From Aureispira sp. CCB-QB1 (lineage in GTDB: Bacteria; Bacteroidota; Bacteroidia; Chitinophagales; Saprospiraceae), in assembly GCF_000724545.1 (NCBI RefSeq), contig NZ_JHBV01000049.1:62001-126000 (forward strand): a DNA stretch of 64,000 nt. Reading direction: 5' to 3'. Numbering within the stretch: position 1 is the first letter of the stretch; each line of letters starts with the position of its first letter. Both the position numbers and the translations under genes were made by a program. The notes beneath the pieces are model-generated. The model worked only from the letters and a program-made list of their open reading frames with translations. It was not told the DNA's origin and did no database searches. This document shows, piece by piece, positions 26,870 through 46,939 of this stretch.

Positions 26870-27009
26870 TACTCCGTTGATTTTTTAGTTTTTCTACGAA
26901 AAACGTAAAAAAGCATCTTGCATTAGTTTGATTATCAGCCTTTTAGCACAAAAGCCAACAAAAGTACATCTTACTGATAATCAAACTAATACGATTTTTC
27001 AACGGAGTA
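26870..27009. repeat. 140-bp palindromic element, copy A (CTCCGTTG-arm class)
   Basis: The outer arms TACTCCGTTGA and TCAACGGAGTA are perfect, and the inner arms TTAGTTTGATTATCAG and CTGATAATCAAACTAA are also perfect. The left half carries an extra stretch with CTACGAAAAACGTAAAAAAGC that is missing from the right half. Both ends carry TA, compatible with a TA target duplication. It ends 18 bases before the ATG of the helical-repeat protein gene. Confidence 0.85.
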
Positions 27010-27027
27010 ATGTTTTAAGAAAACTTT

Positions 27028-28491
27028 ATGAAGACAGATTTATTGCAAGAATTGATACAGAGTTTGTCTAGTGCCGAGAAGCGGTATTTCACCCTGTATG
27101 CTACTCGACATATTACAGAAGAACCGAATCCGTATGTTTTGCTATTTCGTTTATTGGACAAGCGGAAAGCGATTAATCAAGCAGACTTTGAGAAAGAATA
27201 TCAAGCAAAGGTTGGACTAAAAAAGTTCAAGAACATAAAAAGCTATTTGGGGAAATTGGTATTAGAGAGCTTAGAGGGGTTTTACAAAGAAAACGATATT
27301 GAGATCAAATTGGGTTCTTATTATAACCAAGCTAAGATAATGATCAAAAAAGGCTTGTACAACCAGTCAAGTACGTTGATCCAAAAAGGGAGTACATTGG
27401 CACAAAAACATGGCTACAATAATTATGTTGCTATGTTCCAATTTTTGCAGCTGAAGTATTTTTCACTCATTAAAATCAATTTTAACAAAAACAAGTTAAT
27501 TGAAAATACAGAAAAATTATACGAAAGTATTCATCAATATTTAGACATTCAAAAAGAAGAGATAGATGTGTATGTTTGGTTGAACAAACTCTACCATTAT
27601 GCTAGAAGCAAACCAAAGATTAGGGCGCAACTAGACTTTCCAACATTGACAGAACTCCAAAATAAGTTTGACCGTTTTGAATGTTATACAGTTGCAGGAC
27701 AGATTGTTCACAGTGAGCTATTGGCTATTAGAAATAATCAAGAGGGGCGTATTGAAGATGGTTATAAGATTCGAGAACAAATGCATCAAAAATTAAAGCC
27801 ATTAAAAATAAAAGGAGATGATAAAAATACATACTGTAATTTCTTACTCAATTTCGCTGCTGCTGCATTAATGTTGCAGCAATATCAACGATTTAATGAG
27901 TTATTGGATGAACTCTATGTTTTTTTTCAAGCAAATTACACCTCTGATTTAAGTATTTCAAAAGATATATTACTAAGGTTTTTTATTCTAAAGCTAGAAC
28001 ATTTAATCGTTATAGAAAAATTGATAGAACTAGAAAAATTACTTCAAGAAGCGGTTGACTATACGAGTAAATATATTGCGGCATTAAACCCTGTACTCTT
28101 AAAGGTGGTTCAGCTCTCAATAATAGAATCCTATCTAAAACTCAAAGATTACAATGCTTGTTTGAATAGCATCAGTGCTTATTGGGATTGTTACAAAGAT
28201 GATGCTAATATAGCAAGTCGGATTAAAGTAGATTTTATGATGATTACTTGTCATTATGAACTAGAAAACTTTCAATTCTTAGAAAATTATATCAAGACAT
28301 TGAAACGAAAAAAATACAATGATGCTAATTTCTCAACCTTTTTAAATGCGATTCAGAAAGCATGCAAAAGTCCTAGTCGAACGGAGCGAAAACAGGTTTT
28401 TATCAATCTTAGAGCACATTTTATAGAGGCCTATAAGAATAGCCCATACGAACTCAACAAGCTTTTGGCTTGGGTGGATAAGTATACCTAA
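27028..28491 (+). CDS. Hypothetical helical-repeat (TPR-like) protein, paralogue 1
   Basis: 487 residues, no signal peptide and no membrane segments. The N-terminus (LLQELIQSLSSAEKRYFTLYA) and the domain at 50-110 (KFKNIKSYLGKLVLESLEGFY) are shared with the 505-residue protein at 60073, where they read DLIQSLSKSEKRYFTLMA and FGVAKSDLYKLILKSLRQY. The remainder is a chain of helical hairpins, including the shared KKGLYNQSSTLIQKG / QKGLYEQCQGVIQKG repeat at about 105-120. I take it for a Bacteroidota-specific alpha-solenoid family with an N-terminal helical domain of unknown function. Cytoplasmic scaffold or regulator is a guess. Confidence 0.8.
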   Translation: MKTDLLQELIQSLSSAEKRYFTLYATRHITEEPNPYVLLFRLLDKRKAINQADFEKEYQAKVGLKKFKNIKSYLGKLVLESLEGFYKENDIEIKLGSYYNQAKIMIKKGLYNQSSTLIQKGSTLAQKHGYNNYVAMFQFLQLKYFSLIKINFNKNKLIENTEKLYESIHQYLDIQKEEIDVYVWLNKLYHYARSKPKIRAQLDFPTLTELQNKFDRFECYTVAGQIVHSELLAIRNNQEGRIEDGYKIREQMHQKLKPLKIKGDDKNTYCNFLLNFAAAALMLQQYQRFNELLDELYVFFQANYTSDLSISKDILLRFFILKLEHLIVIEKLIELEKLLQEAVDYTSKYIAALNPVLLKVVQLSIIESYLKLKDYNACLNSISAYWDCYKDDANIASRIKVDFMMITCHYELENFQFLENYIKTLKRKKYNDANFSTFLNAIQKACKSPSRTERKQVFINLRAHFIEAYKNSPYELNKLLAWVDKYT

Positions 28492-28508
28492 AGTAGGGAT
28501 TATCACTT

Positions 28509-29144
28509 TTACCGAATTTCGATTTGTTTCCCTAGATATTTAGGTTGAACCCCAAACAAAACGTCAATCAAAACTTTGACTCGGGCTAGTTTTTCTCGAA
28601 TTTGAACTTTCAAACCTGCTCGAATGGAAACATCTTTGGCTTCGAAGCCAATCGCATTGATGTGTTTGTGGTTGGCAATGAAGACCGCACGCTCATTGTG
28701 AAATTTTTGGGAAATAATGGTAATGTTTTTTTGTCCAAATATAGCGTTGCTACGAACGACAGAATCTAAAGTTCTAAAACCTGCATAATCTAGAAAAATC
28801 TTGTGCTCAGGAATGCCTTTTTTTATTAAGTCTTCTTTCATGTCCGTAGGCTCATCATATCCTTTTCGGCTGTTGTCACCACTAACTAAAATAAAGTCAA
28901 TTTTCCCAGCTTTGAATAGTGCTGCCGCAGCTTCTATCCGATATTTGTAATAGCGATTCAAATTTCCATTTTGAAGCAACTTTACAGTGCCAAGGACTAG
29001 CCCTACTTTATTGTAAGGAATGGTCTCAATATTCTTGTATAATTTGTTTTGAACAGAGGATTGAACATAATAATCTGCTCCAAGAATAAGTACAACAAGG
29101 AAAAAGAATGAAGAAAGTAGAATGGACATTAATTTTTTTTTCAT
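28509..29144 (-). CDS. SanA/YdcF-like DUF218 protein
   Basis: 211 residues. An N-terminal membrane anchor (about 5-24) precedes a DUF218 domain with the SanA pattern: VGLVLGT (48-54), YKYRIEAAAALFKAGKIDFILVSGDN, EPTDMKEDLIKKGIP and the LDYAGFRTLDSVVR / SQKFHNERA block. E. coli SanA is an inner-membrane protein that supports the envelope permeability barrier to vancomycin at high temperature. The catalytic role of the domain is unsettled. Its stop is 17 bases from that of the convergent helical-repeat gene. Confidence 0.9.
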   Translation of the reverse strand: MKKKLMSILLSSFFFLVVLILGADYYVQSSVQNKLYKNIETIPYNKVGLVLGTVKLLQNGNLNRYYKYRIEAAAALFKAGKIDFILVSGDNSRKGYDEPTDMKEDLIKKGIPEHKIFLDYAGFRTLDSVVRSNAIFGQKNITIISQKFHNERAVFIANHKHINAIGFEAKDVSIRAGLKVQIREKLARVKVLIDVLFGVQPKYLGKQIEIR

Positions 29145-29253
29145 AAGGTTTTAGTGTTCTTTTAAAATCTGCCTTCATCTATAGTATTAATTTATTGAAA
29201 CGACACCGTAGCAGCGAACCTAGTTTGCTGGCTCATGACCACAAGGAATAATA

Positions 29254-29310
29254 AAATTAACTAAAAACAAAGCGCTCACGGAGTACGACACAGCGTAGTA
29301 AAACTAATCA
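29254..29310. repeat. Dispersed repeat phrase (AACTAAAAACAAAGCGCTCACGGAGTA)
   Basis: The phrase AACTAAAAACAAAGCGCTCACGGAGTA, followed by ACAGCGTAG, recurs with changes at 48962-49013 (inverted) and 52988-53020. The stretch just before it, 29205-29250, matches 21972-22026 in inverted orientation. The mixture looks like a decayed composite of two repeat phrases. Confidence 0.5.
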
Positions 29311-29397
29311 ATGAATTACTACTATAATAGACAATATATTACGAATACTTATATTCAGAGCGTAGTAGAAGAAAAGAGTTTTAGTGTTTGGTTGATT

Positions 29398-29934
29398 TTA
29401 TGATTGATTGGCTTTGTACAAAACATGTAGGGCTAATGGACTATCTTTTTCGAGAAGTGGATGGAGAAATGTATCGACTTTTTTGAGACCAATTTTCTGC
29501 ATAACTCGTTCTGACGGTTTGTTAATTTCGGCGGTAAACGAATAGATTTCTTGAAAGCCTAAGGTGCCAAAACCATACTCTAAACAAGCCAATGCGCCCT
29601 CTGTTGCCAAGCCTTGATTCCAAACACTAGGATCCAACCGCCAACCTATTTCAACACAAGGAGTAAAATAACTCTCAAAACTAGGGCGCATAAAACCAAT
29701 ATACCCAATGAATCGTTTGTCTTTTAATAAATCCACAGCATAAACCGAAAAACCGTAATCGGCATATTGTTGCTGAATACGAGCAAGCATTTTTTTGGTA
29801 GCAGCTTTATCTAATGTGTTTGGGTAGAATTGCATTGCTTGAGAATCAGCATTAATTTTTGCAAAAGGTTCTAAATCAATTTCCTGCCAAGTCCTTAAAC
29901 CAAGTCGAGGCGTTTCTAATAGGTATTTGCTCAT
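29398..29934 (-). CDS. GNAT-family N-acetyltransferase (RimJ/RimL-like)
   Basis: 178 residues from the ATG at 29934; an in-frame TTG at 29958 is rejected. The N-terminus LLETPRLGLRTW is the classic opening of the RimJ/RimL branch. FIGYIGF and CVEIGWRLDPSVWNQGLATEGALACLEYGF carry the acetyl-CoA loop (Q/R-x-x-G-x-A pattern, here NQGLAT), and the conserved NKPSERVMQKIGL helix follows. It transfers acetyl from acetyl-CoA to an amino group; the substrate is unknown. It stands alone between gene-free stretches. Confidence 0.92.
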   Translation of the reverse strand: MSKYLLETPRLGLRTWQEIDLEPFAKINADSQAMQFYPNTLDKAATKKMLARIQQQYADYGFSVYAVDLLKDKRFIGYIGFMRPSFESYFTPCVEIGWRLDPSVWNQGLATEGALACLEYGFGTLGFQEIYSFTAEINKPSERVMQKIGLKKVDTFLHPLLEKDSPLALHVLYKANQS

Positions 29935-30339
29935 AATTGAATGTTTTGATATAGCCAAACAACCAAAATAAAGAAAGGAGTGCTAAACAAAAATCTTTTT
30001 ATTGTAATTTTTTAAGAATTTTTATTGTAGAGCAAATCAAAGCACAAAACCTTTTGAACAAATCGTTGTTTTATAGCTTTATTAATATTAAATTTGGTTA
30101 AATTGTATCAAATAGGCACGTATCTTAAACGTAGTTCATGTAACAAGGAATTGGTATAGCTATAGTTTCTTGTCAAGAGGCAACCTTATAGTATAGATGA
30201 TGGACACCATCTAATACGCTGATTGAGTAGATGAATAACATGAATTACAAATAACGTATTGAGGCAAACATTGAAACTGACAAAATAAAATCAATGCCCT
30301 TGTTTTTTTATCAAAAATTTTGTCAAATAACAAGCATAC
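29935..30339. other. Divergent gap between the GNAT and ArsS-like genes
   Basis: This 405-base AT-rich gap contains GATGGTGTCCATCATC-like dyad symmetry (GATGGACACCATC at about 30197-30209) and the leader of the radical SAM gene. No TAnnTTTG box, terminator or family repeat was recognised. Confidence 0.35.
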
Positions 30340-31392
30340 ATGAAATTACAAACGCTAAAAAAACGTGGTAGTAAATTAGCTACTCCAAATGTTCAAATTG
30401 CTATCTTGGAAGAAACAACTCCTAAAATAACAAAGTTTGAACAAAAATTACAAGATATTAACTTGATGCCTTTCAAGCCTACTCAATTAGAAATCTTTCA
30501 GGTGAATATCGGCTATATGTGCAATATGACTTGTGAGCATTGTCATGTCGATGCGGGACCAACTCGTACCGAAATTATGACAAAGGAAACAATGCAATAC
30601 TGCCTAAATGCCATCAAAGCAGCTAATACGACAACAATTGATATAACAGGAGGAGCTCCAGAAATGAATCCTAATTTTAAGTGGTTCATTGAAGAAATTC
30701 GTGCTATTAGTAAAGATATTGAGATTATTGTTCGAAGCAATTTGACCATTTTGGTTTCTAATAAGGAGTACAGAACTTATCCAGAGTTTTTCAAAAAACA
30801 CAAGTTAACAGTTATTGCTTCTTTGCCTTGTTATACAGCAGAAAATACAGACAAACAAAGAGGAGATAAGACTTTTGTGCGCTCTATTGAAGCCTTACGT
30901 GTATTGAATGATTTGGGATATGGAAAAGAAGGAACTGACTTAAAATTGCATTTGGTATTTAATCCTGGAGGCGCTAGTTTGCCAGGCAACCAAATGAGCT
31001 TGGAAGCAGATTATAAGCGTGTTTTAAAAACAGAGTACGATATCGAATTTAATAATTTGTATACCATTACGAATCTACCTATTAGTCGTTTCTTGGACTT
31101 TTTGTTGAAGGAAGATAAATTTGACGACTATATGCAGTTGTTGCTAGAATCGTTTAATCCAGCAGCAGCAGAAGGTGTGATGTGCCGCAATACATTGTCT
31201 GTTTCATGGGATGGATATTTGTATGATTGTGACTTCAACCAAATGTTGCAACTACAGGTAGAAAAATCAGTTCCTCAACACATCGAAGATTTTGATTTGT
31301 CGGCAATGGAACAGCGCAACATTATGCTGGGACAGCATTGTTATGGCTGTACCGCAGGAGCAGGGTCTAGCTGCCAAGGAATTGTAAGCTAA
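30340..31392 (+). CDS. arsS: Radical SAM protein of the ArsS (arsenosugar biosynthesis) type, cysteine form
   Basis: 350 residues. The 4Fe-4S SAM motif is CNMTCEHC (Cys61, Cys65, Cys68) in a context (HCHVDAGPTRTE) typical of the radical SAM/Cys-rich family that includes ArsS. DITGGAPEMNP supplies the SAM-binding GG patch. The C-terminal auxiliary cluster region reads VMCRNTLSVSWDGYLYDCDFNQ and HCYGCTAGAGSSCQG (Cys334, 337, 345). Some relatives carry selenocysteine near this end, but this protein has cysteine. ArsS makes the deoxyadenosyl-arsenic precursor of arsenosugars and usually sits near the methyltransferase arsM. None is near here, so the assignment is by family only. Confidence 0.85.
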   Translation: MKLQTLKKRGSKLATPNVQIAILEETTPKITKFEQKLQDINLMPFKPTQLEIFQVNIGYMCNMTCEHCHVDAGPTRTEIMTKETMQYCLNAIKAANTTTIDITGGAPEMNPNFKWFIEEIRAISKDIEIIVRSNLTILVSNKEYRTYPEFFKKHKLTVIASLPCYTAENTDKQRGDKTFVRSIEALRVLNDLGYGKEGTDLKLHLVFNPGGASLPGNQMSLEADYKRVLKTEYDIEFNNLYTITNLPISRFLDFLLKEDKFDDYMQLLLESFNPAAAEGVMCRNTLSVSWDGYLYDCDFNQMLQLQVEKSVPQHIEDFDLSAMEQRNIMLGQHCYGCTAGAGSSCQGIVS

Positions 31393-31775
31393 ACGATGAA
31401 TGATGGTCACAAAATATAGTTCCTATAATAGTAAAGTTGCATAGCTTGCTGTGTGACTTTTTCTTTATTTGTTTGTTAACAGTAGTACTTCGTGGATTTT
31501 TTAGCTTTTTTGTGAAAAACTAAAAAAGCATCTTTGCATCAATTTACCGTGTGAGGGCTTCGCCGTTGATTATCAACCCTTTAAGGAATCAAGCAGCAAA
31601 AGTATACTCTATTGATAATCAAACTGATGCGATTTTCCCACGAAGTAATGTAACAGGCAAGTCGTATGTTGTTGAGTGATCGGTTAAGACGAATCACTTC
31701 ATCTTATAGTCAATACAAGTGTAAGCAATGTTATCGTTGAAAATGCTGAGCGATTACTTAGATTCAATTAAAATT
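31393..31775. other. Gap between arsS and a membrane protein gene
   Basis: Most of this gap is the 162-bp palindromic element at 31486-31647. The rest shows no promoter or terminator that I can identify. Confidence 0.4.
31486..31647. repeat. 162-bp palindromic element, copy C (CTTCGTGG-arm class)
   Basis: The outer arms TACTTCGTGG and CCACGAAGTA are perfect. The internal order follows copy A: GATTTTTTAGCTTTTT, AAAAAAGCATCTT, then TTGATTATCA and TTGATAATCAA arms. There is an insert of about 24 bases in the left half (TACCGTGTGAGGGCTTCG). The arms differ from those of copies A and B at several positions, but both ends changed together so that pairing is kept. Confidence 0.85.
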
Positions 31776-32186
31776 ATGGAAAATATAAAGAAGAAAAATA
31801 TCATGCCTCCAATGGTTCAAGCAGCAATATTTGGAGGAAGTGCCCTTGTAGGAATGTTAGGAGCAGCTATTGTAGCTCAAGAATCGTTGACTGTATGGAT
31901 GATTGGTACTTCTTGTTTGTTGTTGTATTCTATTATGAATAATGGGATGAGTATGTTTGCTGAAGATTATAAGAAATATTTGGTCCATTCTATTTATGGA
32001 TTTATGTTTATTATGATAGGGGTGATTGCATTGGCAACTCTTTTTTCGAAACTTAGTGTTTTTGAGGCAGGAGGGTACCGAATGATTTTGACAATTATTT
32101 TGATTGCGAACTTTATTTTTATAGCCATGATTATTACGGTTAAAGGCTTACTAAGCTTGATAGCAGAAAAAGATAAAAAACTATAA
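31776..32186 (+). CDS. Hypothetical four-helix membrane protein
   Basis: 136 residues from the ATG at 31776 (MENIKKKN); an in-frame ATG at 31728 would add 16 residues of non-hydrophobic sequence and cannot be excluded. Four membrane segments, at about 13-33, 38-55, 70-90 and 99-122, are followed by a lysine-rich tail (AEKDKKL). I recognise no family. It is followed by the TlpA-like gene, which has its own promoter, so the two are separate units. Confidence 0.7.
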   Translation: MENIKKKNIMPPMVQAAIFGGSALVGMLGAAIVAQESLTVWMIGTSCLLLYSIMNNGMSMFAEDYKKYLVHSIYGFMFIMIGVIALATLFSKLSVFEAGGYRMILTIILIANFIFIAMIITVKGLLSLIAEKDKKL

Positions 32187-32305
32187 AAAAAAGATTGTAG
32201 TAATATTTTACGTTCTCTAAATGTCAAAGAAGAAACAGATATTTTTAATAGTTTTAACAACTTCATAAAGTTTTGTTTTCATCCAAGACTTTACCGCAAA
32301 AAATG

Positions 32306-32313
32306 TATCTTTG
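32306..32313 (+). promoter_or_regulatory. -7 promoter box TATCTTTG for the TlpA-like lipoprotein gene
   Basis: TATCTTTG is a full match to TAnnTTTG and lies about 120 bases before the ATG. The nearest TTG-type -33 element (32273-32275) is 30 bases upstream, longer than usual. Confidence 0.5.
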
Positions 32314-32431
32314 AACTCTCAAAGAACCTTATTAAAAAGACTTTAAAAGAGCGCAATAATTGGGGAAAAGTTCCTTTTTATTGACTGGTTCACCAACTCT
32401 ACTAAAAGTATATTTATAATTCCAAAAAGAA

Positions 32432-33832
32432 ATGATGCGTACTTGGACAATTTTAACCTTGGGGTGTATACTAGCTTGGGCTTGTAACGATTCCAAAAAA
32501 ACAACAACAAAATTACCTAAATCAATTACCTTAGAAGTAAAGGTTTCGGATACGACCAATGTAGTAGATAGCCTTCGTGTTTATGCATGGAAAGGCATTC
32601 AAGCAGAAGAAGTAGTCACCAAAGCCGTAACAAAAACAGATGCAGGATTTGGCTGTACTTTCGACTTAGGGCAAGTACCTAGAGGAATGTATTATGTTGG
32701 CGCTAGTTTAAGAGATTTGAAACCTGTTTTGTTGGGAACAGAAAAAGCAGTGATTCTGGAAGGTGTAACACCAAAATTAGCTGACTTGAAGGTTATCAAT
32801 AGTCCCTTGAACAAAGAGTATGATCAACTAATGAAGCGAATTCAAGGTTATAACCAAACTTTTATGACTTTGATGACCGATTATAAAAATGGACAGGGAG
32901 ATAATGCCACCTTGGAAAAGGTTAAGAAAAAAATGGCTAAAGAAGACAAAGAAAAAATGATGTTGCTGGATTCTTTGCGCCAAAAAAACTCTGAATTAGC
33001 TCGTATTATGGCTTTTAATACCTTTCAGAGTTATCAAAATAATGGAAAATCTGGACAAGTAGAAGGAGCTTACTTTGCGGAGTCATTTTTTGATTATGTA
33101 GATTTTGAAGACTCTGTATATGCTAGATTGCCATTTTACTATGAGAATGTAAAAAATTATGCGACAGCACTTTCAACGGTAGGGTTAAAGAGTCCCGAAC
33201 AAAAAGCAGTACTTGATAGTTTATTTGCAAAAGTTCCAGAAACGAGCCAACTACACCAACCTACTTTGGTAGCAGTTACTTTTGGAATGATGGGAAGAAA
33301 CAATGAGGTATTTATGAAGTACAGCAAAGCTTATATGGATAAGTATACTGGAGATTACCCTATGTTAGATAAGTTTATGAAAGAACAATACGCCAAGCTG
33401 AAAGGTGCTGCTGGTGTAGGAGAAGCAGCTGCTAATATTACAGGGGCAACACCTGAAGGTAAAACGCTATCATTGACGGATTTGAGAGGTAAATACGTGT
33501 TGATTGATTTCTGGGCAAGTTGGTGTGGTCCTTGTCGTCGTGAAAATCCGAATGTAGTTCGTTTGTACAATAAATATAAGGACAAAGGTTTTGATATTTT
33601 AGGAGTTTCTTTGGATACTAATAAAGATAAATGGGTCGATGCAATCAAAAAAGATAAATTAACTTGGCATCATGTCAGTGATTTAAAAGGTTGGAGTTCT
33701 CAATTGTCGAAACCTTATGGCGTGCGTGGTATTCCGTATACTGTCTTGGTTGATAAAGAAGGGAATATTGTTGCCAAACGCCTTAGAGGAGCTACGTTGG
33801 AGGCAAAACTAAGAGAGATATTTGGCTCTTAA
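32432..33832 (+). CDS. TlpA-like thioredoxin-fold lipoprotein with DUF4369-type N-terminus
   Basis: 466 residues. The signal peptide with lipobox (LAWAC, Cys18) anchors it to a membrane. Residues 30-120 form a DUF4369-like beta domain. A helical linker rich in Lys and Glu follows (130-330). The thioredoxin domain (about 335-466) has the redox pair Cys365-Gly-Pro-Cys368 in FWASWCGPCRREN and the cis-Pro segment VRGIPYTVLVD. It is expected to reduce disulphides of envelope proteins. This layout is common in Bacteroidota. An internal M-M start leaves a one-residue ambiguity. Confidence 0.92.
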   Translation: MMRTWTILTLGCILAWACNDSKKTTTKLPKSITLEVKVSDTTNVVDSLRVYAWKGIQAEEVVTKAVTKTDAGFGCTFDLGQVPRGMYYVGASLRDLKPVLLGTEKAVILEGVTPKLADLKVINSPLNKEYDQLMKRIQGYNQTFMTLMTDYKNGQGDNATLEKVKKKMAKEDKEKMMLLDSLRQKNSELARIMAFNTFQSYQNNGKSGQVEGAYFAESFFDYVDFEDSVYARLPFYYENVKNYATALSTVGLKSPEQKAVLDSLFAKVPETSQLHQPTLVAVTFGMMGRNNEVFMKYSKAYMDKYTGDYPMLDKFMKEQYAKLKGAAGVGEAAANITGATPEGKTLSLTDLRGKYVLIDFWASWCGPCRRENPNVVRLYNKYKDKGFDILGVSLDTNKDKWVDAIKKDKLTWHHVSDLKGWSSQLSKPYGVRGIPYTVLVDKEGNIVAKRLRGATLEAKLREIFGS

Positions 33833-33861
33833 ATATTAATTGAAGTATAAAATGTTGTAAT

Positions 33862-33899
33862 ACAAGTCATTCAGTTTATGGATGACTTGTGTTTTTTTT
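33862..33899 (+). terminator. Intrinsic terminator after the TlpA-like gene
   Basis: ACAAGTCAT (33862-33870) pairs with ATGACTTGT (33882-33890), then G and eight T. Confidence 0.8.
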
Positions 33900-33940
33900 G
33901 ATCTATGAGTTGTATTGGCAACAACTAACTACAAAATAAA

Positions 33941-34858
33941 ATGAGATACGCAATATTAACACTATTACTTGGGCTATTATGGGGAGATAGTTATGCTGGT
34001 GGACCTTGGGCAAAAAAAAAGGGAGAAGGCTATGTACAATTTGCAGCGTATGCCATTCCACCTATTAATAGACTTTCGATCAATGCGTATAGAACCAAGT
34101 TTTTAAATCGGTCTATTTTTGACGCTACAGCAGAGTTGTATGCAGAATATGGTTTGACAAAACGCTTCACCCTTTCTGCTTCATTACCTCTAAAAATTGT
34201 TTCATCTGGGCAAGAGGTGCAAACTGTTGACCCGAATCAATTGGGAACTAATGCTTTTGGTCCTCCAAGCATGGTATTGGATGCAGGAACTCTAGTCGAC
34301 TTAGGAAATGCTCGATTAGGAGGAAAGTATAATTTTTTTAGTAAAACCATCCATTTAGCAGCTCATGCTTTGATTTCGGCACCAACTGCTATACAAGCTT
34401 ATAATCCTAATACAGGGTTGAGAACAGCTTATCCTTGTTGGGGATTTCAACCTTCTTTATCTATAGGATATGGCAAAGAGAAAATGTATACGTATTTGGA
34501 AAGTGGTATGAATTTTAGAACCCACGACTACAGTCACCAGTGGGTTGCGAATTTTGAAATAGGATGGCGAGTAGGGAAGCGTACCTATTTAGCAGTAGCT
34601 TTGGATGCGATTGTTTGTTTGCCAGGGCAGTCGGATATTCCAAACTCAACCCAAGAAGTACAAACAGGTTTGTATGTTAACAATCAAAATTTTGTAGCAT
34701 TCACTTTGAAGGCGATTGTACCTGTTTCGGATTACGTTGGTATGAATTTTTCTTTGTCAGGTGGTTTATGGGCAAATAATGTACAACAGGGACCCAATAT
34801 TGGTGTTGGGGTTTATTACAAATGGAAGAAAAAGAAAAAGTCAAGCGCTGTTGAGTAG
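33941..34858 (+). CDS. Predicted outer-membrane beta-barrel protein
   Basis: 305 residues. The signal peptide ends DSYA. The mature part alternates hydrophobic and polar residues with many aromatic girdle positions (GEGYVQFAAYAI, LYAEYGLTKRFTLSASLPL, FEIGWRVGKRTYLAVALDA, FVAFTLKAIVPVSDYVGMNFSLSGG). It ends in IGVGVYYKWKKKKKSSAVE. This is the pattern of porin-like or transporter-like barrels with about 10-14 strands. The basic tail after the last strand is unusual, since barrels normally end at an aromatic residue. The cargo is unknown. Confidence 0.78.
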   Translation: MRYAILTLLLGLLWGDSYAGGPWAKKKGEGYVQFAAYAIPPINRLSINAYRTKFLNRSIFDATAELYAEYGLTKRFTLSASLPLKIVSSGQEVQTVDPNQLGTNAFGPPSMVLDAGTLVDLGNARLGGKYNFFSKTIHLAAHALISAPTAIQAYNPNTGLRTAYPCWGFQPSLSIGYGKEKMYTYLESGMNFRTHDYSHQWVANFEIGWRVGKRTYLAVALDAIVCLPGQSDIPNSTQEVQTGLYVNNQNFVAFTLKAIVPVSDYVGMNFSLSGGLWANNVQQGPNIGVGVYYKWKKKKKSSAVE

Positions 34859-38270: not shown

Positions 38271-38304
38271 ATAAAGGAAATTTTAAATTGGAAAAATTCA
38301 ATAA

Positions 38305-38562: not shown

Positions 38563-41409
38563 ATGCCATATTTACTCTACATAATTTTATTTTGGGGATA
38601 CTCAACGCTTACCTTTGGACAAAAAGATTGTGACAAAAGCATCTATCAGGTAGCTGAATCGGGTTGGATTAGCTGCTCGGTAACCTTAGACGCTAAAACC
38701 AATCAAGACTATTCAATTCGCTTTGTAAGTTCGATCAAAGGCTTAACAGCAACAATTACTAGTACATATTCTGGAGCAATCTTATCAAAAGGCGATTATT
38801 GGATTTTTATTACTAATAATGGACTTAAACGAGCTTTTTTGTGTCAAGATAAAACACGTGTTGTTTCTTTAGAAGGTAAGCAACAGTATGTGACAACGAT
38901 TGTTGTCAACTGGAAAGGGTTAGAGTGGCTTGCTCAGCATAAAATTCATAGTTTTGGGGCAATGAATCAAGCTATGAAAAGTAGTCGATTATCAGAGGTG
39001 AAGTTATCTAGCCTTGCGGCACGAACATTTTGGAATCTCTCAAAATGTTTTTATTACTCTGTTGATCAGCAAATGACAACTCTTATAGAAGAACCAATTG
39101 TTGATAACAAAAAATTAGAACAAGTAGAATTATCTGCAACTAGCACGAATTCGGTGGAGTTTAGCAATATAGATATCAATGCGAATAAAAACCCTATTCG
39201 ATATAGTGGCGTTGATCAACCCAATTATGCGAAAGGGTTGAGTCAAATGGCAGAATTATATCAAGCCGCAAACGATCCTGTTAAAGCAGAGCAGTATTAT
39301 CTAGAAGCACAACAGAGTATTGTTCAGTTTTCGGGAATAGACTATGCGGATTATCCAGATTTATTAAATGATTTGGGCGCTTTTTATCAACAGGTAGGAG
39401 ATGTGCAGAAAGCAAAACAGCATTATTTAGATGCTAAGGATTTGATTGAAAAAATATTTGGCAATCACCATCCCCAATATCCAATCACATTGAACAGTTT
39501 AGGAGCACTACATCTGTCGGTTGATGAATTGGAGAACTCTGAAGAGTACCATCAACAAGCTAAGGCATTATTGGAAGATGAATTTAGTGTCAGCCATCCA
39601 GAGTATACAACTACATTAGGCCACTTATCTAATTTTTATTTGGTTAAAAGAGATTATAAAAAAGCACTGGAAGTATTAATGGATTTGGCAAAGAATTTAA
39701 TCCATCAATTATACAGTTATTATCCTAGTTTGAATGAAGCGGAGCGGTTGAAATTTTTAAAGAATTTAAATCAAACAGTTCATCAATTTTACTCCTCAGC
39801 AATACAACTATTGCCCAATATGCCTGAATTGAGTAATGAAATTGCGAACATCAATTTAGCAATAAAAGGTTTGGCTTTGGAGGGCAGTATTGCGACAAGG
39901 GCTAGCTTGTTAACGGCAGGGGATAGTTTATTGAGAAACCAATACTACAATTGGCTGGGAGTACGCCGCCAATTGGCACAAGCGGCGGTAATGCCCAAAT
40001 TGGAGCGAGATATGTTGGGTATAAATTTGGAAGACTTGGATCAACGTGCCTTGGGGTTAGAGAAACAATTGAGTGCTGCTTCTGGAGCTTTATCCAATCA
40101 GTTTAAGTTACGTCGTCAACAGCTGACCGTAGATAGCATACGAGAACGTCTAAAGGCGGGAGAAGTAGCCATAGATTTTATTCATTTTAACTATCATAAT
40201 GGCAAAGATTGGGAAGATTCCATTCTCTACTATGCGATGGTTATCCAAAAAGGAAAAAAGACGACTCAAATGATTTCGTTGAGCAATCATAAGGAGTTGC
40301 AGGCTATATTAAATATTAACATCACTAAAAATAGCCAAAGCTACATCAATAGTTCTTTAACCAATAAGGAACTTTATGAATTGATTTGGAAACCATTAGA
40401 ACCGGAGTTGACCAGAGTTAAGCGAATTTATATATCTCCAACTGGATTGTTACATCAAATAGCATTTGCTGCGCTTCGAGACAAAAATGGAAAATTTCTT
40501 TTAGATTCTTATGAGGTGGTACAATATGGTTCTTTTAGAGACTTTGTATACCCTACCAATACCCAAAATATAAGGAAAGATATTGTCTTGGTTGGGGGGG
40601 CTAAATTTAGCGTAGATTCTGCTAAGTTGGTCAATTTGGTTAAAAAGATAAAAGATTCTACACAGGTTTTAACAACTTATGATTTATATGCTTATGCGAA
40701 TACTGCGTTGCCGTTGAGTCGAGCATTGGCTAATAATTTTTCTAGAGGAAATCTATTTTTTAACTACTTGGTTGGAACGAAAGAAGAAGTAGAAACGATT
40801 GATGTGCTGTTTAATCAGAAGAATTGGCAGACGCATAAGTACGTAGGAGAGGAGGCTTTGGAAGATAAAGTAAAATTGCATTCTAGAAAAGCAGCACCTT
40901 ATATTTTACACATCGCCACACATGGCTATTTTTTCAGACCTTTGACTCCAAGCCCTGTCGGTTCCAAGGAATTTTACAAACAAATCATTTATGCACAAAA
41001 TCCTTTGATGCGCTCTGGTTTGATTTTGACAGGAGCCAACCGAGTGTGGCAAGGCAAACGCCCAATAGAAGGCTTAGATGATGGGGTTTTGACCGCCTAT
41101 GAGATATCAAATTTGGACTTGTATAAAACAGACTTAGTAGTTTTATCTTCTTGTGAGACTGGACTGGGCGATGTATATGATAGCGAAGGTATTTTTGGCT
41201 TACAGAGAGCTTTAAAATCGGCAGGTGTACGCCAAATGTTGGTGACGTTATGGCGAATCCCCGACAAAGAAACAGCAGAATTGATGGGCGTTTTTTATGA
41301 GCATTATTTACAAACAGGCTCTGCTAAACAAGCGTTGAAATTGGCGCAAAAGGAAATGCAAGAAAAGTATAGCCCTTTTTACTGGGCAGGTTTTGTTTTG
41401 ATTGAGTAA
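38563..41409 (+). CDS. Secreted TPR-CHAT protein (caspase-like peptidase)
   Basis: 948 residues. A signal peptide (ending LTFG) sends it across the inner membrane. Residues about 215-380 are TPRs (YAKGLSQMAELYQAANDPVKAEQYYLEA and three more), followed by a long helical region (390-610). The C-terminal CHAT domain (about 625-948) has the catalytic pair His787 in HIATHGYFF and Cys864 in LSSCETGLGD. It also has the family end motif ALKSAGVRQMLVTLWRIPDKET and SPFYWAGFVL. CHAT domains are caspase-fold proteases. In bacteria many act in regulated proteolysis or cell-death systems, but a signal peptide argues here for a periplasmic or surface role. A Crp/Fnr regulator gene follows 44 bases downstream. 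Confidence 0.92.
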   Translation: MPYLLYIILFWGYSTLTFGQKDCDKSIYQVAESGWISCSVTLDAKTNQDYSIRFVSSIKGLTATITSTYSGAILSKGDYWIFITNNGLKRAFLCQDKTRVVSLEGKQQYVTTIVVNWKGLEWLAQHKIHSFGAMNQAMKSSRLSEVKLSSLAARTFWNLSKCFYYSVDQQMTTLIEEPIVDNKKLEQVELSATSTNSVEFSNIDINANKNPIRYSGVDQPNYAKGLSQMAELYQAANDPVKAEQYYLEAQQSIVQFSGIDYADYPDLLNDLGAFYQQVGDVQKAKQHYLDAKDLIEKIFGNHHPQYPITLNSLGALHLSVDELENSEEYHQQAKALLEDEFSVSHPEYTTTLGHLSNFYLVKRDYKKALEVLMDLAKNLIHQLYSYYPSLNEAERLKFLKNLNQTVHQFYSSAIQLLPNMPELSNEIANINLAIKGLALEGSIATRASLLTAGDSLLRNQYYNWLGVRRQLAQAAVMPKLERDMLGINLEDLDQRALGLEKQLSAASGALSNQFKLRRQQLTVDSIRERLKAGEVAIDFIHFNYHNGKDWEDSILYYAMVIQKGKKTTQMISLSNHKELQAILNINITKNSQSYINSSLTNKELYELIWKPLEPELTRVKRIYISPTGLLHQIAFAALRDKNGKFLLDSYEVVQYGSFRDFVYPTNTQNIRKDIVLVGGAKFSVDSAKLVNLVKKIKDSTQVLTTYDLYAYANTALPLSRALANNFSRGNLFFNYLVGTKEEVETIDVLFNQKNWQTHKYVGEEALEDKVKLHSRKAAPYILHIATHGYFFRPLTPSPVGSKEFYKQIIYAQNPLMRSGLILTGANRVWQGKRPIEGLDDGVLTAYEISNLDLYKTDLVVLSSCETGLGDVYDSEGIFGLQRALKSAGVRQMLVTLWRIPDKETAELMGVFYEHYLQTGSAKQALKLAQKEMQEKYSPFYWAGFVLIE

Positions 41410-41453
41410 CTTAGTAAACTGTATCTAGTTGTTTCAACAAAATTCTGGCAAAA

Positions 41454-42032
41454 ATGAAGGAGAAAATTATAGAATACATGGCTCAATTTGAGTTTTTTAC
41501 AACAACAGAAATGGAGGAAATCGCTGCACAACTTCATATAGAGGCTTTCCCTAAAGGCACATTGTTGTTAAAAGAGGGCGAAATTGCAGACAAATGTTTT
41601 TTTGTGTTAGAAGGCTGCATTCGCCAATATTACCTAGTAGATGGGGAAGAAAAGACGACTGCTTTTTATACAGAAAAACAAGCCGCCGTTTCTTTTACAA
41701 GTTACGCAGAACAAAGTCCTTCAACGCATTATTTAGTCTGTGTAGAAGATTGTATCTTACTAGTTGGTAATCCAACACAAGAACAGGCAATGTATCAGCA
41801 ACATCCTAAATTAGAAGCATTTATTCGACTGTTGTTGGAGCAAGGATTTGGTAAAACTCAAGAACAATTTGCAAACTTTATAAGTTCCTCACCCGAAAAA
41901 CGTTACTGCGATTTGTTAAAAAATCAACCAGACTTGTTGCATCGAGTCCCACAGCATCAAATTGCAAGTTATTTGGGGGTGACACCAGAGTCTTTGAGTC
42001 GAATTCGAAAAAGGGTTGCTTCTAAGAAATAG
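41454..42032 (+). CDS. Crp/Fnr-family transcriptional regulator
   Basis: 192 residues, same subtype as the protein at 8594. The cyclic-nucleotide-binding-like domain (GTLLLKEGEIADKCFFVLEGCIRQYYL) is followed by the winged helix IASYLGVTPESLSRIRKR at about 170-187. It lacks Fnr-type cysteines. It lies directly behind the CHAT gene on the same strand and its stop is 5 bases from that of the convergent DUF4386 gene. It could be co-transcribed with the CHAT protease. Confidence 0.88.
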   Translation: MKEKIIEYMAQFEFFTTTEMEEIAAQLHIEAFPKGTLLLKEGEIADKCFFVLEGCIRQYYLVDGEEKTTAFYTEKQAAVSFTSYAEQSPSTHYLVCVEDCILLVGNPTQEQAMYQQHPKLEAFIRLLLEQGFGKTQEQFANFISSSPEKRYCDLLKNQPDLLHRVPQHQIASYLGVTPESLSRIRKRVASKK

Positions 42033-42037
42033 CGCAT

Positions 42038-42727
42038 CTAGCTTTTTTTATTGTTTTGAACAATAAGCCAAATACCGAGCCCAAGCTCCCCAAAAATCAT
42101 TGGTAAACTAAAAATCATTTCTACAATTGGCTTGTAGTGTAGATAATGGTCGCTACTCAAACTGGCAATATTATTAAATAGATAACCAACAGCAGCAATT
42201 AACAAAAGCCAACTGATTGTTTTGGGTACAGGAGTTTCTCGTAGAGCAATAAATCCCAAAAAAAGCAAATGAAGACCAAAGATGATTAACCCAAATGACC
42301 ATATGGTATAGAAGTTCTGAATTTGATTCAAGACTTCAGAAGCCGATAAGGTTGAATTTGGGAGGTGGGGCAGGATTAAAACCAAAGTTGTAATGGCAAT
42401 TCCTAGAATGATCGTATAAACCAATCTAAATCCAGCCATCCACTTGGACCTAGTTTCGTCGAATCGCTTAAAATATCCCCATAGCCCCCAAGAGGCAAGT
42501 AAATCGCAAATGAAGATAAGGATTAATCCTATTATCCCTAATACAAATAGGCTTATGTCTTGTTGAATGTTATTCATGGTCATAATCGCATCTTCCAAGA
42601 TAATTAATTGACCAAAGGCATAACCAATAGAAAAAATAGCAAGGATTGCCATGGTTATAATGGAAAGACCAGCTGTTAAGGCAGCAGAACGTTGTTGGGG
42701 TAAAGGCATTTTTAGTGCAAGTGTCAT
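42038..42727 (-). CDS. DUF4386-family membrane protein
   Basis: 229 residues with six predicted membrane segments. Family landmarks are the early basic turn (PLPQQRSAALTAGLSIITM), LASWGLWGYFKRFDETRSKWMAGFRLVYT, LQ/NFYTIWSFGLIIFGLHLLFLGFIALR and the last segment GELGLGIWLIVQ. The family is common in Bacteroidota and Actinobacteria and has no known function. Its stop is only 5 bases from that of the convergent Crp/Fnr gene. Confidence 0.88.
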   Translation of the reverse strand: MTLALKMPLPQQRSAALTAGLSIITMAILAIFSIGYAFGQLIILEDAIMTMNNIQQDISLFVLGIIGLILIFICDLLASWGLWGYFKRFDETRSKWMAGFRLVYTIILGIAITTLVLILPHLPNSTLSASEVLNQIQNFYTIWSFGLIIFGLHLLFLGFIALRETPVPKTISWLLLIAAVGYLFNNIASLSSDHYLHYKPIVEMIFSLPMIFGELGLGIWLIVQNNKKS

Positions 42728-42772
42728 AATAAGCTTTGTTTGTAGTTTTTGATTGTTTTAAGGTTTATACAA

Positions 42773-42780
42773 CAAAGTTA
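42773..42780 (-). promoter_or_regulatory. -7 promoter box TAACTTTG for the DUF4386 gene
   Basis: The minus strand reads TAACTTTG, a full TAnnTTTG match 46 bases before the start at 42727. No TTG at the expected distance was seen. Confidence 0.45.
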
Positions 42781-42866
42781 AATGACAGGACGGTCTTATT
42801 CATTGACTAAAGATAAGAAATGCTTTCAAGCCTCTTAAAAATGGGTAAGAAATATTTATGACTGTA

Positions 42867-43160
42867 TTATAGACTTTCTGAAGGACCGAACCAAGACCAT
42901 AATTCCCCGTCTTCGCTGAAGGTAGCAGAACAGGTAAAACATTCAAATTTATAAGTAGTTTGCCCTGACCAAACTTTTTGGGAGCTGGGTTTTCCTAAAA
43001 TTCGGAGGACATTTTCTTGTGACATTCCCTTTTCTAAACTTGCCCATTTTTCACTACGAGTCATCTTACTTAGTGCTTCATCACTAGGACCTTGTGGCGA
43101 TAGATCGCAGCTATGAAGGAATAGGAACAATAGAAATATAAAATAGATGGGTTGTTTCAT
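42867..43160 (-). CDS. Small BamE/SmpA-like lipoprotein
   Basis: 97 residues. The signal peptide ends in a lipobox (LHSC, Cys18). The mature 80 residues have the BamE-like pattern WASLEKGMSQENVLRILGKPSSQKVWSG followed by two short strands, one with a CFTC pair that could bind metal or form a disulphide. BamE helps beta-barrel assembly in Proteobacteria. In Bacteroidota this fold appears in many small lipoproteins, so a Bam role is not implied. Confidence 0.75.
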   Translation of the reverse strand: MKQPIYFIFLLFLFLHSCDLSPQGPSDEALSKMTRSEKWASLEKGMSQENVLRILGKPSSQKVWSGQTTYKFECFTCSATFSEDGELWSWFGPSESL

Positions 43161-43217
43161 TTGGTATGAAGTTTAGTTAAAAATAATATTTGGGGATATA
43201 ACACCACAAGGAGGCTT

Positions 43218-44087
43218 TTATAGTTTTTGGATTTCCTCAATTGAGAGACCTGTATATCGGGCTATTTTTTCTAAGGAAAAACCATCTGTTTTCATTTCTT
43301 TGGCTACCTCTATACTTTTTTTGACTTTACCTTCTTTAATACCCTTTTCTCTGCCCTCCTTAATTCCCTCTTCTTTAGAAGAATCAACAACATTTTTCAA
43401 ATCGCGATAATATTTTAAACTTTCCTCGTATTGTTCTTTTTCTTTGGGAGTAAATTTAGCGATTTCAGCTGCTTCAAAGAGTTTTTTAAAAATTCTTTCT
43501 TGAAGCACAACAGGGCGGTTTTGCAGGTTGGCTAGATGTCTAAAAACATACAACCATTTATCAAACTTAGATTGCAACTCGTTATCGGACTTAGTGAATT
43601 TAGGAAGCTCAATATAGATGTAGGTTAGTTTATTATAAAATACATTGTCATTTTGATCTTTTAGTTTAACAGTATGTAATAACTCATTTTGAGTTTTGTG
43701 TTCATCAAAAATAAAGTCTAAGATACCAATTGTATAAACAGCTGCCAATTTAAAATTCCAATCCCCTTTTTTTGCTTGTTCCTGTATGGGGAAAGTAGAG
43801 TAATAGACCGATCTATCTTTAAAGAAATTTTGTTTAGCTTTTTGCACTTCTACAATAAATTTTTCGCCAGATTCACTCTCACAATACAAATCAAAGATGG
43901 CTTTTCTTTCATATTCACTGCTCCCTAAGTGCTCATTTTTAGTATAAGTAAGGTTTTTAATCTGATGGATAGAAGGGAGCAATTGATTGAGAAAATCAAT
44001 TAAAAGCTCTTTATTAGGTTCAACTCCAAAAAGTTTTTTGAAACCAAAATCTGTAAGAGGGTTTATATATTTATCTTTTAAAGTCAT
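43218..44087 (-). CDS. Rpn-family recombination-promoting nuclease/putative transposase (PD-(D/E)XK)
   Basis: 289 residues from the ATG at 44087; the in-frame TTG at 44105 is less likely. The N-terminus YINPLTDFGFKKLFG is diagnostic of the family. The nuclease core is AIFDLYCESESGEKFIVEVQKAKQ, with the Asp and E-x-Q acids of the PD-(D/E)XK fold near 65-85. The C-terminal part has the usual charged repeats (EGIKEGREKGIKEGKVKK) and a short helix-turn-helix-like end. Rpn proteins in E. coli are DNA endonucleases that stimulate RecA-independent recombination and can be toxic. No terminal repeats or partner genes mark it as an insertion sequence here. Confidence 0.92.
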   Translation of the reverse strand: MTLKDKYINPLTDFGFKKLFGVEPNKELLIDFLNQLLPSIHQIKNLTYTKNEHLGSSEYERKAIFDLYCESESGEKFIVEVQKAKQNFFKDRSVYYSTFPIQEQAKKGDWNFKLAAVYTIGILDFIFDEHKTQNELLHTVKLKDQNDNVFYNKLTYIYIELPKFTKSDNELQSKFDKWLYVFRHLANLQNRPVVLQERIFKKLFEAAEIAKFTPKEKEQYEESLKYYRDLKNVVDSSKEEGIKEGREKGIKEGKVKKSIEVAKEMKTDGFSLEKIARYTGLSIEEIQKL

Positions 44088-44255
44088 TTTTAATATTTTA
44101 GGCAATAAAAGCGTATCTTTTTAATAATCAAAATGATGTGATTTGGTCATGCAGCAAAGTATAAATATAACTATTTTTTAGTTCGTATAGTTTCTGAAGT
44201 TTGCTTTTTTTGAATGAGTTGTATTGTTTGAAAAGAAAAATCCAGCCTTAATTTT

Positions 44256-45848
44256 TTAGTCTGAAGACATCAATTCTTTTGCAATATTATCACCAGTAAT
44301 AGTAGAAGCAGTTAACAGACCAGCAAAGGCTGCTCCACCAATGCCCGCTGTAGTGATATCTTGCCCTGTCAAGTAAAAGTTTTTGATAGGCGTTCTTGGG
44401 CGTAGAAACTTTTGTTCAAATCGTTCTGGAGTATGTTCCAAACCATATAACTCACCTTTTTCATAATTGACAAAATGCTTTGTTGTTAATGGACTAGACA
44501 ACTCATAGTAATCCACTTTTCCTTTTAGTTGAGGTTCTTTCTTGTATAGTATCTCTAAGAGGCGTTGTGCAATTTTTTCCTTGCGTGCTTCATAGTCTTC
44601 ACCTCGTTTTTTCCATCGTTTTCCATCCCAATTTTCAAATGTTTCATAAGGAACGAGTGTGATAATATCAATTGTACTTTTACCAGGATAGCGATTGTTC
44701 CAATCAGGATCTTTTGCGGCAGGAAAAGAAATATAAACAACAGGAAAAGGCTCGTTATGATCCTTTAAATAATTCTCAACACATTCATCATGACTCAGTT
44801 TGTCAGGGTAGAGCCAGTAGTTGGCTTTGGGCAACTGCAATTCTTCAGGGCTTCCATCTAAACCAATATAGAGACAAGCATGAGCTACAGAATGTTGTAC
44901 TTTGTTAAGTTGTTGTTGCAAACGATGTTTTTGCACGATAGGAGCAGGAAGCAAAGTTTTGTAAGTAGTGTATAGCCCCGCATTGCTGATAATGTGTTTT
45001 GCTTTGAATACTTTTCCATCTTTCATTCGAACACCAACAGCCGTATTCTTTTCTATAACTACTTGGTCAACTTCAGCACTAATAAGAATAGTAGATCCCA
45101 AACGTTCTAATACGGGAGCAATCGTTTCTACAATTTGAGAAGATCCACCAATAGGAAAAAAGCCCCCTGAAAAATAGTGTCTGACCAAAGAGGCATGCAT
45201 GGCAAAACTACTTTGTTTGGGCGGTAGACCATAGTCTCCATATTGACCTGCCAATACTTTGATTAATTCTTGATTTTGGGTTAGAGAACCGAGTACGTCA
45301 TGGGTGCTTTTTCTAGCATATTCGAGATAGGGCTTTCGCAAGAACCATCCCAATAATTTGCTCCAAATTGGAGACATTGTTTTTTCAACAAAAAAATTGC
45401 GACTGGTAGCACTAACCTTAAAAATTAAATCTACGTATGCTCGAATTGCTTTTTCTTCGTCAGGGAAATAGCCAATCATTTTTTCTGTCCAGTTACCAAC
45501 ACCTTTGACGTAATCATAAGTTTTATCCCCAATGACAATGCGATCGTATACCGCTCCCATATCTGCCCATTTTAGTTGTTGGTCAGTGATAGAGTCAAAT
45601 ATTTTTTTGAGAATGCTAGATTCTTTTTCCATACTACCCACATAATGAATTCCAACATCCCATTCATAACCTTTGCGCTTGAAAATATGGGTAAAACCAC
45701 CTGCTGTATAGTGACGCTCCAACACCAAGACCTTTTGACCTTTCTGAGCTAATAAAACAGCAGTAGTTAAACCACCTATCCCCGAACCTATAATGATAGT
45801 ATCGTACGATGCAGCAAGTTTGTGTTTCTTTTTGTAAGATTGAACCAT
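44256..45848 (-). CDS. FAD-dependent phytoene desaturase/retinol saturase-like oxidoreductase
   Basis: 530 residues. The dinucleotide-binding motif is IIIGSGIGGLTTAVLLAQ (18-35) followed by VLVLERH. The body (GGFTHIFKRKGYEWDVGIHYVG, FAMHASLVRHYFSGGFFPIGGSSQIVE) and the C-terminal FAD motif FYLTGQDITTAGIGGAAFAG are closer to all-trans-retinol 13,14-reductase (RetSat) than to bacterial CrtI. The likely reaction is saturation or desaturation of a polyene lipid, carotenoid or retinoid. No other carotenoid genes are near, so the substrate is open. It is a single-gene unit. Confidence 0.9.
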   Translation of the reverse strand: MVQSYKKKHKLAASYDTIIIGSGIGGLTTAVLLAQKGQKVLVLERHYTAGGFTHIFKRKGYEWDVGIHYVGSMEKESSILKKIFDSITDQQLKWADMGAVYDRIVIGDKTYDYVKGVGNWTEKMIGYFPDEEKAIRAYVDLIFKVSATSRNFFVEKTMSPIWSKLLGWFLRKPYLEYARKSTHDVLGSLTQNQELIKVLAGQYGDYGLPPKQSSFAMHASLVRHYFSGGFFPIGGSSQIVETIAPVLERLGSTILISAEVDQVVIEKNTAVGVRMKDGKVFKAKHIISNAGLYTTYKTLLPAPIVQKHRLQQQLNKVQHSVAHACLYIGLDGSPEELQLPKANYWLYPDKLSHDECVENYLKDHNEPFPVVYISFPAAKDPDWNNRYPGKSTIDIITLVPYETFENWDGKRWKKRGEDYEARKEKIAQRLLEILYKKEPQLKGKVDYYELSSPLTTKHFVNYEKGELYGLEHTPERFEQKFLRPRTPIKNFYLTGQDITTAGIGGAAFAGLLTASTITGDNIAKELMSSD

Positions 45849-46142
45849 AGTAGCGTAGTATTTGAAATAGATTGAATAGTTGTTCTACAATATACAATTT
45901 TAATATAAAAAAATGGCTAAGATTTAACAAAGTTCTATTTGTTGTAAGATCTTTCATGGTTTAGCCTCTTATCTAAGAATGGAAAAATTAGATAGATAAT
46001 GGAGGTGTTATGGGGAATGGCAACAGGAAATATGAGTTAATAAAATGTTAAGTCTTTGTACAAAATAATTTTTCTAGAACCAATTTAAGTTTTGCTTGTT
46101 TCGGAGTATTATAATTTAATCATTAAAGAACAAACAATAAAA

Positions 46143-46775
46143 ATGGAATTATTAGACAAGTTAAATTGGCGTTATGCTACCAAAGCAATGAATGGTAAAA
46201 AGGTACCTCAAGAGAAAATTGATACCATTATAGAGGCTGCCAATTTGGCTCCAACTTCTAGTGGATTACAACCTTTCGAAATTATTGTAGTTACCAACCA
46301 AGAGGTAAAAGAAAAAATCAAGGCAATTGCTTGGAATCAATCTGTTGTATCGGATTGTTCTCACTTATTGGTTTTTGCTGCTTGGGATACGTATACAGAA
46401 GATCGAATTAATAAAATGTTTGACTTGGTCAATGAAGTACGTGGATTTAAGAACGAAGGATGGGAGAATTATCGCCAGCAATTATTAAATATTTATCCTC
46501 AGAGAGATGCTGAAGAAAACTTTAATCATGCTGCAAGACAAGCCTATATTGCATTGATGGCAGCATTGACGGCAGCAGCTTTTGAAGAAGTAGATAGTAC
46601 TCCTATGGAGGGATTTGATCCTGCTAAACTGGATGAAATCTTAGATTTGAGATCCAAAGGGCTTAGAAGCTGTGTGATGATGACAGTTGGATATAGAGAT
46701 ACTGAGAAAGACTGGTTGGTAAACCTAGAAAAAGTGCGCAAGAGCAAAGATGACTTGGTTACGATTGTAGACTAA
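46143..46775 (+). CDS. NAD(P)H-dependent nitroreductase family oxidoreductase
   Basis: 210 residues from the ATG at 46143; an in-frame TTG at 46092 is rejected. The start LLDKLNWRYATKAMN fits the NfsB/Frp group. FMN contacts are in RYATKAMN (10-17), APTSSGLQPFEI (38-49) and the GFDPAKLDEIL and GLRSCVMMTVGYRD segments. The family reduces nitroaromatics, quinones or flavins with FMN. A copy of the 140-bp palindromic element begins 25 bases after the stop. Confidence 0.92.
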   Translation: MELLDKLNWRYATKAMNGKKVPQEKIDTIIEAANLAPTSSGLQPFEIIVVTNQEVKEKIKAIAWNQSVVSDCSHLLVFAAWDTYTEDRINKMFDLVNEVRGFKNEGWENYRQQLLNIYPQRDAEENFNHAARQAYIALMAALTAAAFEEVDSTPMEGFDPAKLDEILDLRSKGLRSCVMMTVGYRDTEKDWLVNLEKVRKSKDDLVTIVD

Positions 46776-46799
46776 TAAAGACTACAAGTAGGATAACAT

Positions 46800-46939
46800 T
46801 ACTCCGTTGAAAAATCGTATTAGTTTGATTATCAGCAAGATGTATTTTTATTAACCTTTGCACTAAAAGACTGGTAATCAAACTAATACAAGATGCTTTT
46901 TTACGTTTTTCGTAGAAAAAATAAAAAATCAACGGAGTA
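46800..46939. repeat. 140-bp palindromic element, copy B (CTCCGTTG-arm class, inverted relative to copy A)
   Basis: This has the same length as copy A and, read as reverse complement, about nine in ten positions agree with it by eye. Outer arms TACTCCGTTGA/TCAACGGAGTA are perfect and inner arms TTAGTTTGATTA/TAATCAAACTAA are kept. Both ends carry TA. It lies between the nitroreductase and TPR genes. Confidence 0.85.

Follow-up and report, generated by a model that had tools for sequence, protein, structure and literature searches.

Three long palindromes, here called copies A, B, and C, lie in a 64,000-nucleotide stretch of the Aureispira sp. CCB-QB1 genome (contig NZ_JHBV01000049.1, positions 62,001 to 126,000; hereafter the window), and base changes in one outer arm are matched by complementary changes in the other. 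A preliminary description took this matching as the trace of selection on a folded DNA or RNA form. What kind of element are these palindromes, and what keeps their arms paired? We propose, with a probability of about 85%, that they are copies of an Aureispira MITE (a DNA transposon that is short and non-autonomous) in which the fold is retained and the apical loop changes fast.

Palindromic copies of the window and their family

The coordinates, orientations, and arms of copies A (26870-27009), B (46800-46939, in the opposite orientation), and C (31486-31647) were as first described, and all three copies sit between open reading frames (ORFs) of at least 100 amino acids, in agreement with the intergenic position assigned to them. 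Their lengths of 140 bp (A and B) and 162 bp (C) were also reproduced, but the full element extends 3 bases more on each side. Copy A as a full element occupies 146 bp of the forward strand (26867-27012), with terminal TAA and ATG, between two target-site duplications TTTTAA (26861-26866 and 27013-27018). Read along that strand, it is composed of a left outer arm (terminal inverted repeat; 26870-26880), a side hairpin (element positions 12-43; 26881-26912), the 5' arm of an inner stem (positions 53-69; 26922-26938), an apical loop that is the hypervariable part (positions 70-104; 26939-26973), the 3' arm of the inner stem (positions 105-121; 26974-26990), and a right outer arm (terminal inverted repeat; 26999-27009). 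Copy B (46797-46942, reverse strand) is flanked by GGATAA on its left (46791-46796) and right (46943-46948) in the window. Copy C (31483-31650, forward strand), which lies between two TAACAG duplications (left, 31477-31482; right, 31651-31656), represents a second subfamily with TACTTCGTGG arms. All three are palindromes, but the internal plan said to be common to them does not cover the 22 extra bases of copy C, which are a nested insertion in the inner stem.

Several copies (copy C, at 31546-31567, and L028, L030, and L068) have sequence-related hairpin modules of ~22 bases within the inner stem; the module of L068 is present in CCB-QB1 and missing in G040, a second strain of the same species. 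The small dispersed repeats of Nostoc likewise include modules of 20 to 30 bases inside other repeats, a likeness of general description between different organisms and different sequences. The window also contains a short relative of ~42 bp with TACTTCGTGG/CCACGAAGTA arms (21896-21937, forward strand), a weak match to the covariance model introduced below (E 0.1). Other short repeats, which start with TACTTCGTG or end with ACGRAGTA (at 22017, 29278, 48963, 52493, 52755, and 53013), apparently constitute a second dispersed palindromic family. A direct repeat of ~430 bases with 74-77% identity (20004-20435 and 21077-21508) likely corresponds to adjoining paralogous genes.

The three long copies first reported are members of a family with dozens of copies; 61 distinct near-full-length ones were examined in CCB-QB1. 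The covariance-model search proposed at the outset (47 copies in the model; 150 candidates scored per genome) recovered the family in 5 of 9 Aureispira genomes, with at least 150 matches each in CCB-QB1 and G040, 149 each in G001 and G006, and 104 in G003; these figures are matches rather than copies, and the palindrome matches on the opposite strand too, as it does in the window. The same search gave no match in the remaining four Aureispira genomes. BLAST with copy A, scoring no more than 21 candidates in each genome, was run on 40 genomes (CCB-QB1 and 39 relatives) and detected the family in 4 of them, all of one genus, and a scan for the pattern in named genome contigs gave at least 75 stretches, all of them from Aureispira among the matches listed. 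There were no exact pattern matches in viral contigs, and spread of the element by phages was rejected on this ground. No description of the family appeared among the literature matches listed, which included PMC2229807 and PMC10969869, each available in part.

Terminal repeats, duplicated target sites, and a candidate partner IS

A 6-bp direct repeat adjoins the ends TAR-TACTYCGT...ACGRAGTA-ATG in 43 of 59 copies, including all three copies of the window; when left and right flanks were shuffled against each other, 1.6 copies on average, and never more than 5, had one (small offsets were allowed in real and shuffled flanks alike). At the site of copy A, G040 has one TTTTAA and no element. The reverse is seen at window positions 53122-53127, where CCB-QB1 has an empty site with a single ATATTC and G040 has an element, L275, between two copies of ATATTC. 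L275 is identical at 140 of 140 bases to the G040 copy L272 and to the CCB-QB1 copy L012, and this identity makes L272 a possible parent copy. Both flanks were included in the fetched G040 stretches for 41 of the 60 CCB-QB1 copies with usable ends, and the element was present in 36 and absent in 5; as the comparison is undirected, each difference may be a gain or a loss in either strain.

The elements thus combine terminal inverted repeats (TAATACTCCGTTGA/CATTACTCCGTTGA), a target-site duplication of fixed length (6 bp), and many non-coding copies, as expected for a MITE. Copies inside coding regions at a random rate had been named as an observation that would count against a constrained structure; none of 56 copies has more than half its length inside an ORF of at least 80 amino acids, in a window that is 82% coding. 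MITEs also have ends in common with an autonomous element, and a DDE_Tnp_1 search of CCB-QB1 and G003, which yielded five loci, revealed a candidate. This locus, L239, is an intact IS of the CCB-QB1 genome. It spans 1365 bp and has a terminal repeat that is perfect over 22 bp (CAATACTTCGTTGAAGTATTAA; ends CAATACTTCGTTGA), a 6-bp duplication (TTATGC), and an ORF of 429 amino acids whose product is nearest to IS701/IS4-type models. Its best score, 92.4 bits with transpos_IS701_3, is below the NCBIfam cut-off of 170 for the IS701 family, and DDE_Tnp_1 is the only Pfam model above its cut-off (30.5 versus 23). In each of the two main MITE ends (TAATACTCCGTTGA and CATTACTCCGTTGA), 12 of 14 bases are the same as at the terminus of this IS, the likeness shown being that of the ends. 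Three other loci (L235, L236, and L237) were rejected as partners for having none of the searched end motifs, as was L238, which has one site only, resembling the other repeat family.

Because the ends are similar and both elements make a 6-bp duplication, a DDE transposase of the L239 type likely mobilizes the MITE. The case for this partner is good but incomplete: neither G040 nor G001, both of which are rich in MITE copies, yielded the transposase, and G040 holds a MITE copy that is missing in CCB-QB1, although the empty result of the search for the L239 IS in G040 says little. Relatives of the transposase in G003 and G006 contain an internal stop, none was detected in G001 or in the four MITE-free genomes of the genus that were searched, and weak matches came from G008 and G035, both outside the genus. 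At L239 1034-1251, the IS adjoins another family element with TAGTTCGT arms and nested modules, and the broken IS of G003 (L241) has one TAGTTCGT-type end.

The 6-bp duplications, the empty sites, and the existence of an IS with similar ends lead us to interpret the outer arms as terminal inverted repeats. REP and REPIN elements are short palindromes that bear a tag such as GTAG, are moved by a Y1 transposase, and make no duplication; this class was rejected for the Aureispira element, which has a 6-bp duplication and a likely partner of the DDE type. A closer counterpart is RUP of Streptococcus pneumoniae, a MITE with IS630-Spn1 as its proposed mover, according to the available part of PMC2229807. 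RUP is also short (107 bp) and intergenic, has about a hundred copies and ends like those of a resident IS, and folds into a stem-loop, but it inserts at TA, whereas the Aureispira element has a 6-bp duplication, a DDE_Tnp_1-type partner, and another sequence. The Correia/NEMIS elements of Neisseria, as presented in the same part of that source, are likewise short mobile repeats that have terminal inverted repeats and fold into a stable stem-loop; they differ in their TA termini and proposed RNase III processing, and no hypervariable loop is mentioned for them there. The CIR elements of Caulobacter (same source and part) resemble the Aureispira element in that their structure is branched and includes a linker instead of being a single simple hairpin, but a terminal loop of theirs has a conserved GANTC motif, whereas no part of the Aureispira element is less conserved than its terminal loop.

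Covariation of outer arms and internal stems

The covariation reported for the outer arms is real and wider than was stated, as it reaches the internal stems as well. Folding as single-stranded DNA gave z scores of -10.3 for copy A and -6.4 for copy B, with none of 200 shuffles as good, and folding as RNA gave -7.5 for copy A and -3.6 for copy C. In an alignment of 47 copies, picked for diversity out of 99 usable ones, pairing was intact in 92.9% of cells, and 19 of 44 pairs had two-sided changes (outer arms, 6 of 11; side hairpin, 3 of 14; inner stem, 9 of 18; top pair of the inner stem, 1 of 1). The count of compensatory changes, suggested earlier as a check, amounted to 126 two-sided cells, compared with 43 +/- 5 in shuffles, which lose the relatedness of the copies, and 10-22 in slid structures, which keep it. 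RNAalifold, unaided, predicted 30 pairs, of which 14 had changes on both sides. To look for a sign of an RNA strand, G.T and A.C mismatches were compared in 97 of the 99 copies; they comprised 62 and 170 cells, respectively, but 68 of the A.C cells belong to the single pair 52-122, and counted by pair position the numbers were 26 and 27. Within the apical loop, 351 column pairs were examined for Watson-Crick covariation, and no convincing stem emerged, the strongest signals looking like shared ancestry.

The outer-arm matching needs no fold, because it is expected from recognition by one transposase. A transposon has no such need of matching inner-stem arms, and the covariation of the internal stem and side hairpin therefore points to either a folded form or palindrome correction. 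The original claim of selection on a folded form is thus supported in part, insofar as the internal stem and side hairpin covary; it does not carry over to the outer arms, which are transposon ends, and a function for the host at the place of each copy is unsupported.

Two sets of copies compared between CCB-QB1 and G040 bear on whether the stems are constrained in place. In the first (17 pairs, selected by similarity to copy A), 1 of 1495 paired positions had changed, versus 15.1 expected. In the second (18 further pairs), which mixes synteny-placed and similarity-fetched copies, several with nested insertions, and is less surely aligned, 22 of 1537 had changed, versus 15.6 expected. Eight of these 22 changes are in L017, next to an insertion of 33 bases, and seem to be due to misalignment, given that the arm is unchanged in another alignment. 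In-place constraint on the stems, found in the 17 pairs, failed in the 18 further pairs and is not claimed here.

These comparisons also help to weigh two other readings. The arms could be matched without selection if one arm templates repair of the other, a quasi-palindrome correction by intrastrand template switching. Such correction would account for paired changes in stems other than the transposon ends and for the few changes at paired positions in the first strain set, with the untemplated loop spared from it, but no pair changed on both sides was seen among the strain differences in 25 aligned strain pairs inspected, so that no correction was caught in progress, and paired positions had no protection in the second set. 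We consider this reading unlikely, if far from negligible. Alternatively, the copies could be host regulatory RNA or DNA structures (e.g., a terminator, attenuator, or processing site) selected at each place, to which the real covariation, the position outside ORFs, and the near absence of paired changes in the first set would conform. The copies, however, are present or absent depending on the strain, the second set does not repeat the constraint, and a gathering-score search of the window returned no Rfam match. Nor is there a clear orientation bias, with 13 copies in tandem gene pairs lying in the element's direction and 15 in the opposite one. Convergent gene pairs hold 4 of 49 copies (versus 9 of 53 in the window), and a terminator role was rejected for this absence of enrichment; divergent pairs are a frequent setting and hold 17 of 49 (versus 9 of 53 in the window). 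Selection of a host structure at each place is, on balance, quite improbable. Since only one of the two sets of copies showed in-place constraint on the stems, the fold of the proposed MITE was probably kept during its spread, in transposing lineages, rather than for a host function.

Fast change in the apical loop

Variation among copies of one genome is concentrated in the loop. In 31 similar CCB-QB1 copies, mean heterozygosity was 0.224 in the loop and 0.028-0.062 elsewhere, with 172 transition and 10 transversion cells in the loop. The same regional contrast was observed in G006 (20 copies; 79 transition and 10 transversion cells) and in G001 (19 copies; 80 and 30, i.e., more transversions), all of these within-genome copies having been chosen by similarity. 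A set defined by the left-end pattern only (39 of 67 copies, from more than one species) gave 0.290 for the loop versus 0.020 and 0.044 for the inner-stem arms; the value of 0.157 for the right outer arm in this set is probably due to insertions in some copies.

The loop also differs when the same copy is compared between CCB-QB1 and G040. The single difference in copy B and the three differences in copy C all lie inside the apical loop. In 18 simple pairs, changes were found at 30 of 628 loop sites, 48 of 14394 flanking sites, and 5 of 1887 sites in the rest of the element, and 70 of 6936 four-fold synonymous sites differ between the strains. One of these pairs, L010, with 8 of 35 loop sites changed, looks like a whole-loop replacement and was left out of the comparison with expectation, which was computed by base composition. 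The remaining 17 pairs had 22 of 594 loop sites changed (6.0 expected) and the 18 further pairs 33 of 590 (6.0 expected). Together, 55 of 1184 sites of the 35-nt loop had changed, versus 12.0 expected at synonymous rates, with 49 transitions and 6 transversions. The apical loop is thus an unexpected hotspot of change between the strains.

Such changes could be due to ectopic gene conversion between copies instead of point mutation. L010 and L030 have the same loop, although 8 loop sites separate L010 from the corresponding copy in G040, and among 15 pairs with at least two loop differences, a sampled paralogue (of 39 CCB-QB1 and 34 G040 copies) matched the changed span in 8 and the whole loop in 1. 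Two G040 copies also have identical modules at one and the same position: L283 and L292 carry, where the side hairpin has its tip (element position 29), a module of 20 bases that is missing from their CCB-QB1 counterparts L004 and L014, and by exact pattern this module is found in 10 of 61 CCB-QB1 copies and in none of 62 copies of three other species. In 7 of the 15 pairs, on the other hand, no sampled paralogue matched the changed span, most changed pairs differ at only one to three scattered loop sites, and 43 of 44 loops extracted from CCB-QB1 are distinct. Gene conversion may account for the loop common to L010 and L030, and other loops may partly have changed in this way, but as the general source of the loop changes conversion is improbable. 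An assembly mix-up would exchange entire loops, unlike the one to three scattered changes of most changed pairs.

Strain differences in presence with 6-bp duplications, covariation, and an excess of loop changes between strains are observed directly. For the proposed MITE, we infer the identity of the transposase, the requirement for the fold, and single-strand exposure as the cause of loop change, as follows. Most likely, a DDE transposase like that of L239 works at the outer arms, which in the main subfamily read TAATACTYCGTTGA/CATTACTYCGTTGA, and makes the duplications. The side hairpin and the 17-19 bp inner stem, which covary between subfamilies, would reflect a fold retained in transposing lineages, either because movement needs the fold or because one arm templates correction of the other. 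The inner palindrome would then extrude, or make a hairpin at replication, probably leaving the 35-nt loop single-stranded, and the exposed loop would gain changes fast, most of them transitions. We suggest, tentatively, that the element extrudes in living cells and that its tip is a mutation hotspot, which would write a separate, mostly transition-only barcode into the loop of each of the dozens of nearly identical stems.

If this is true, the family would naturally record the formation of cruciforms and which copy descends from which in transposition. MITEs are common, and the fast loop is the unexpected part here. The availability of two strains of one species separates in-place change from change during spread, and the covarying internal stems make the need of a DDE transposon for internal structure testable. 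The combination of conserved stems with a fast loop provides dozens of natural replicates in which to ask if palindromes of bacterial chromosomes extrude and if loops exposed in this way have a higher mutation rate.
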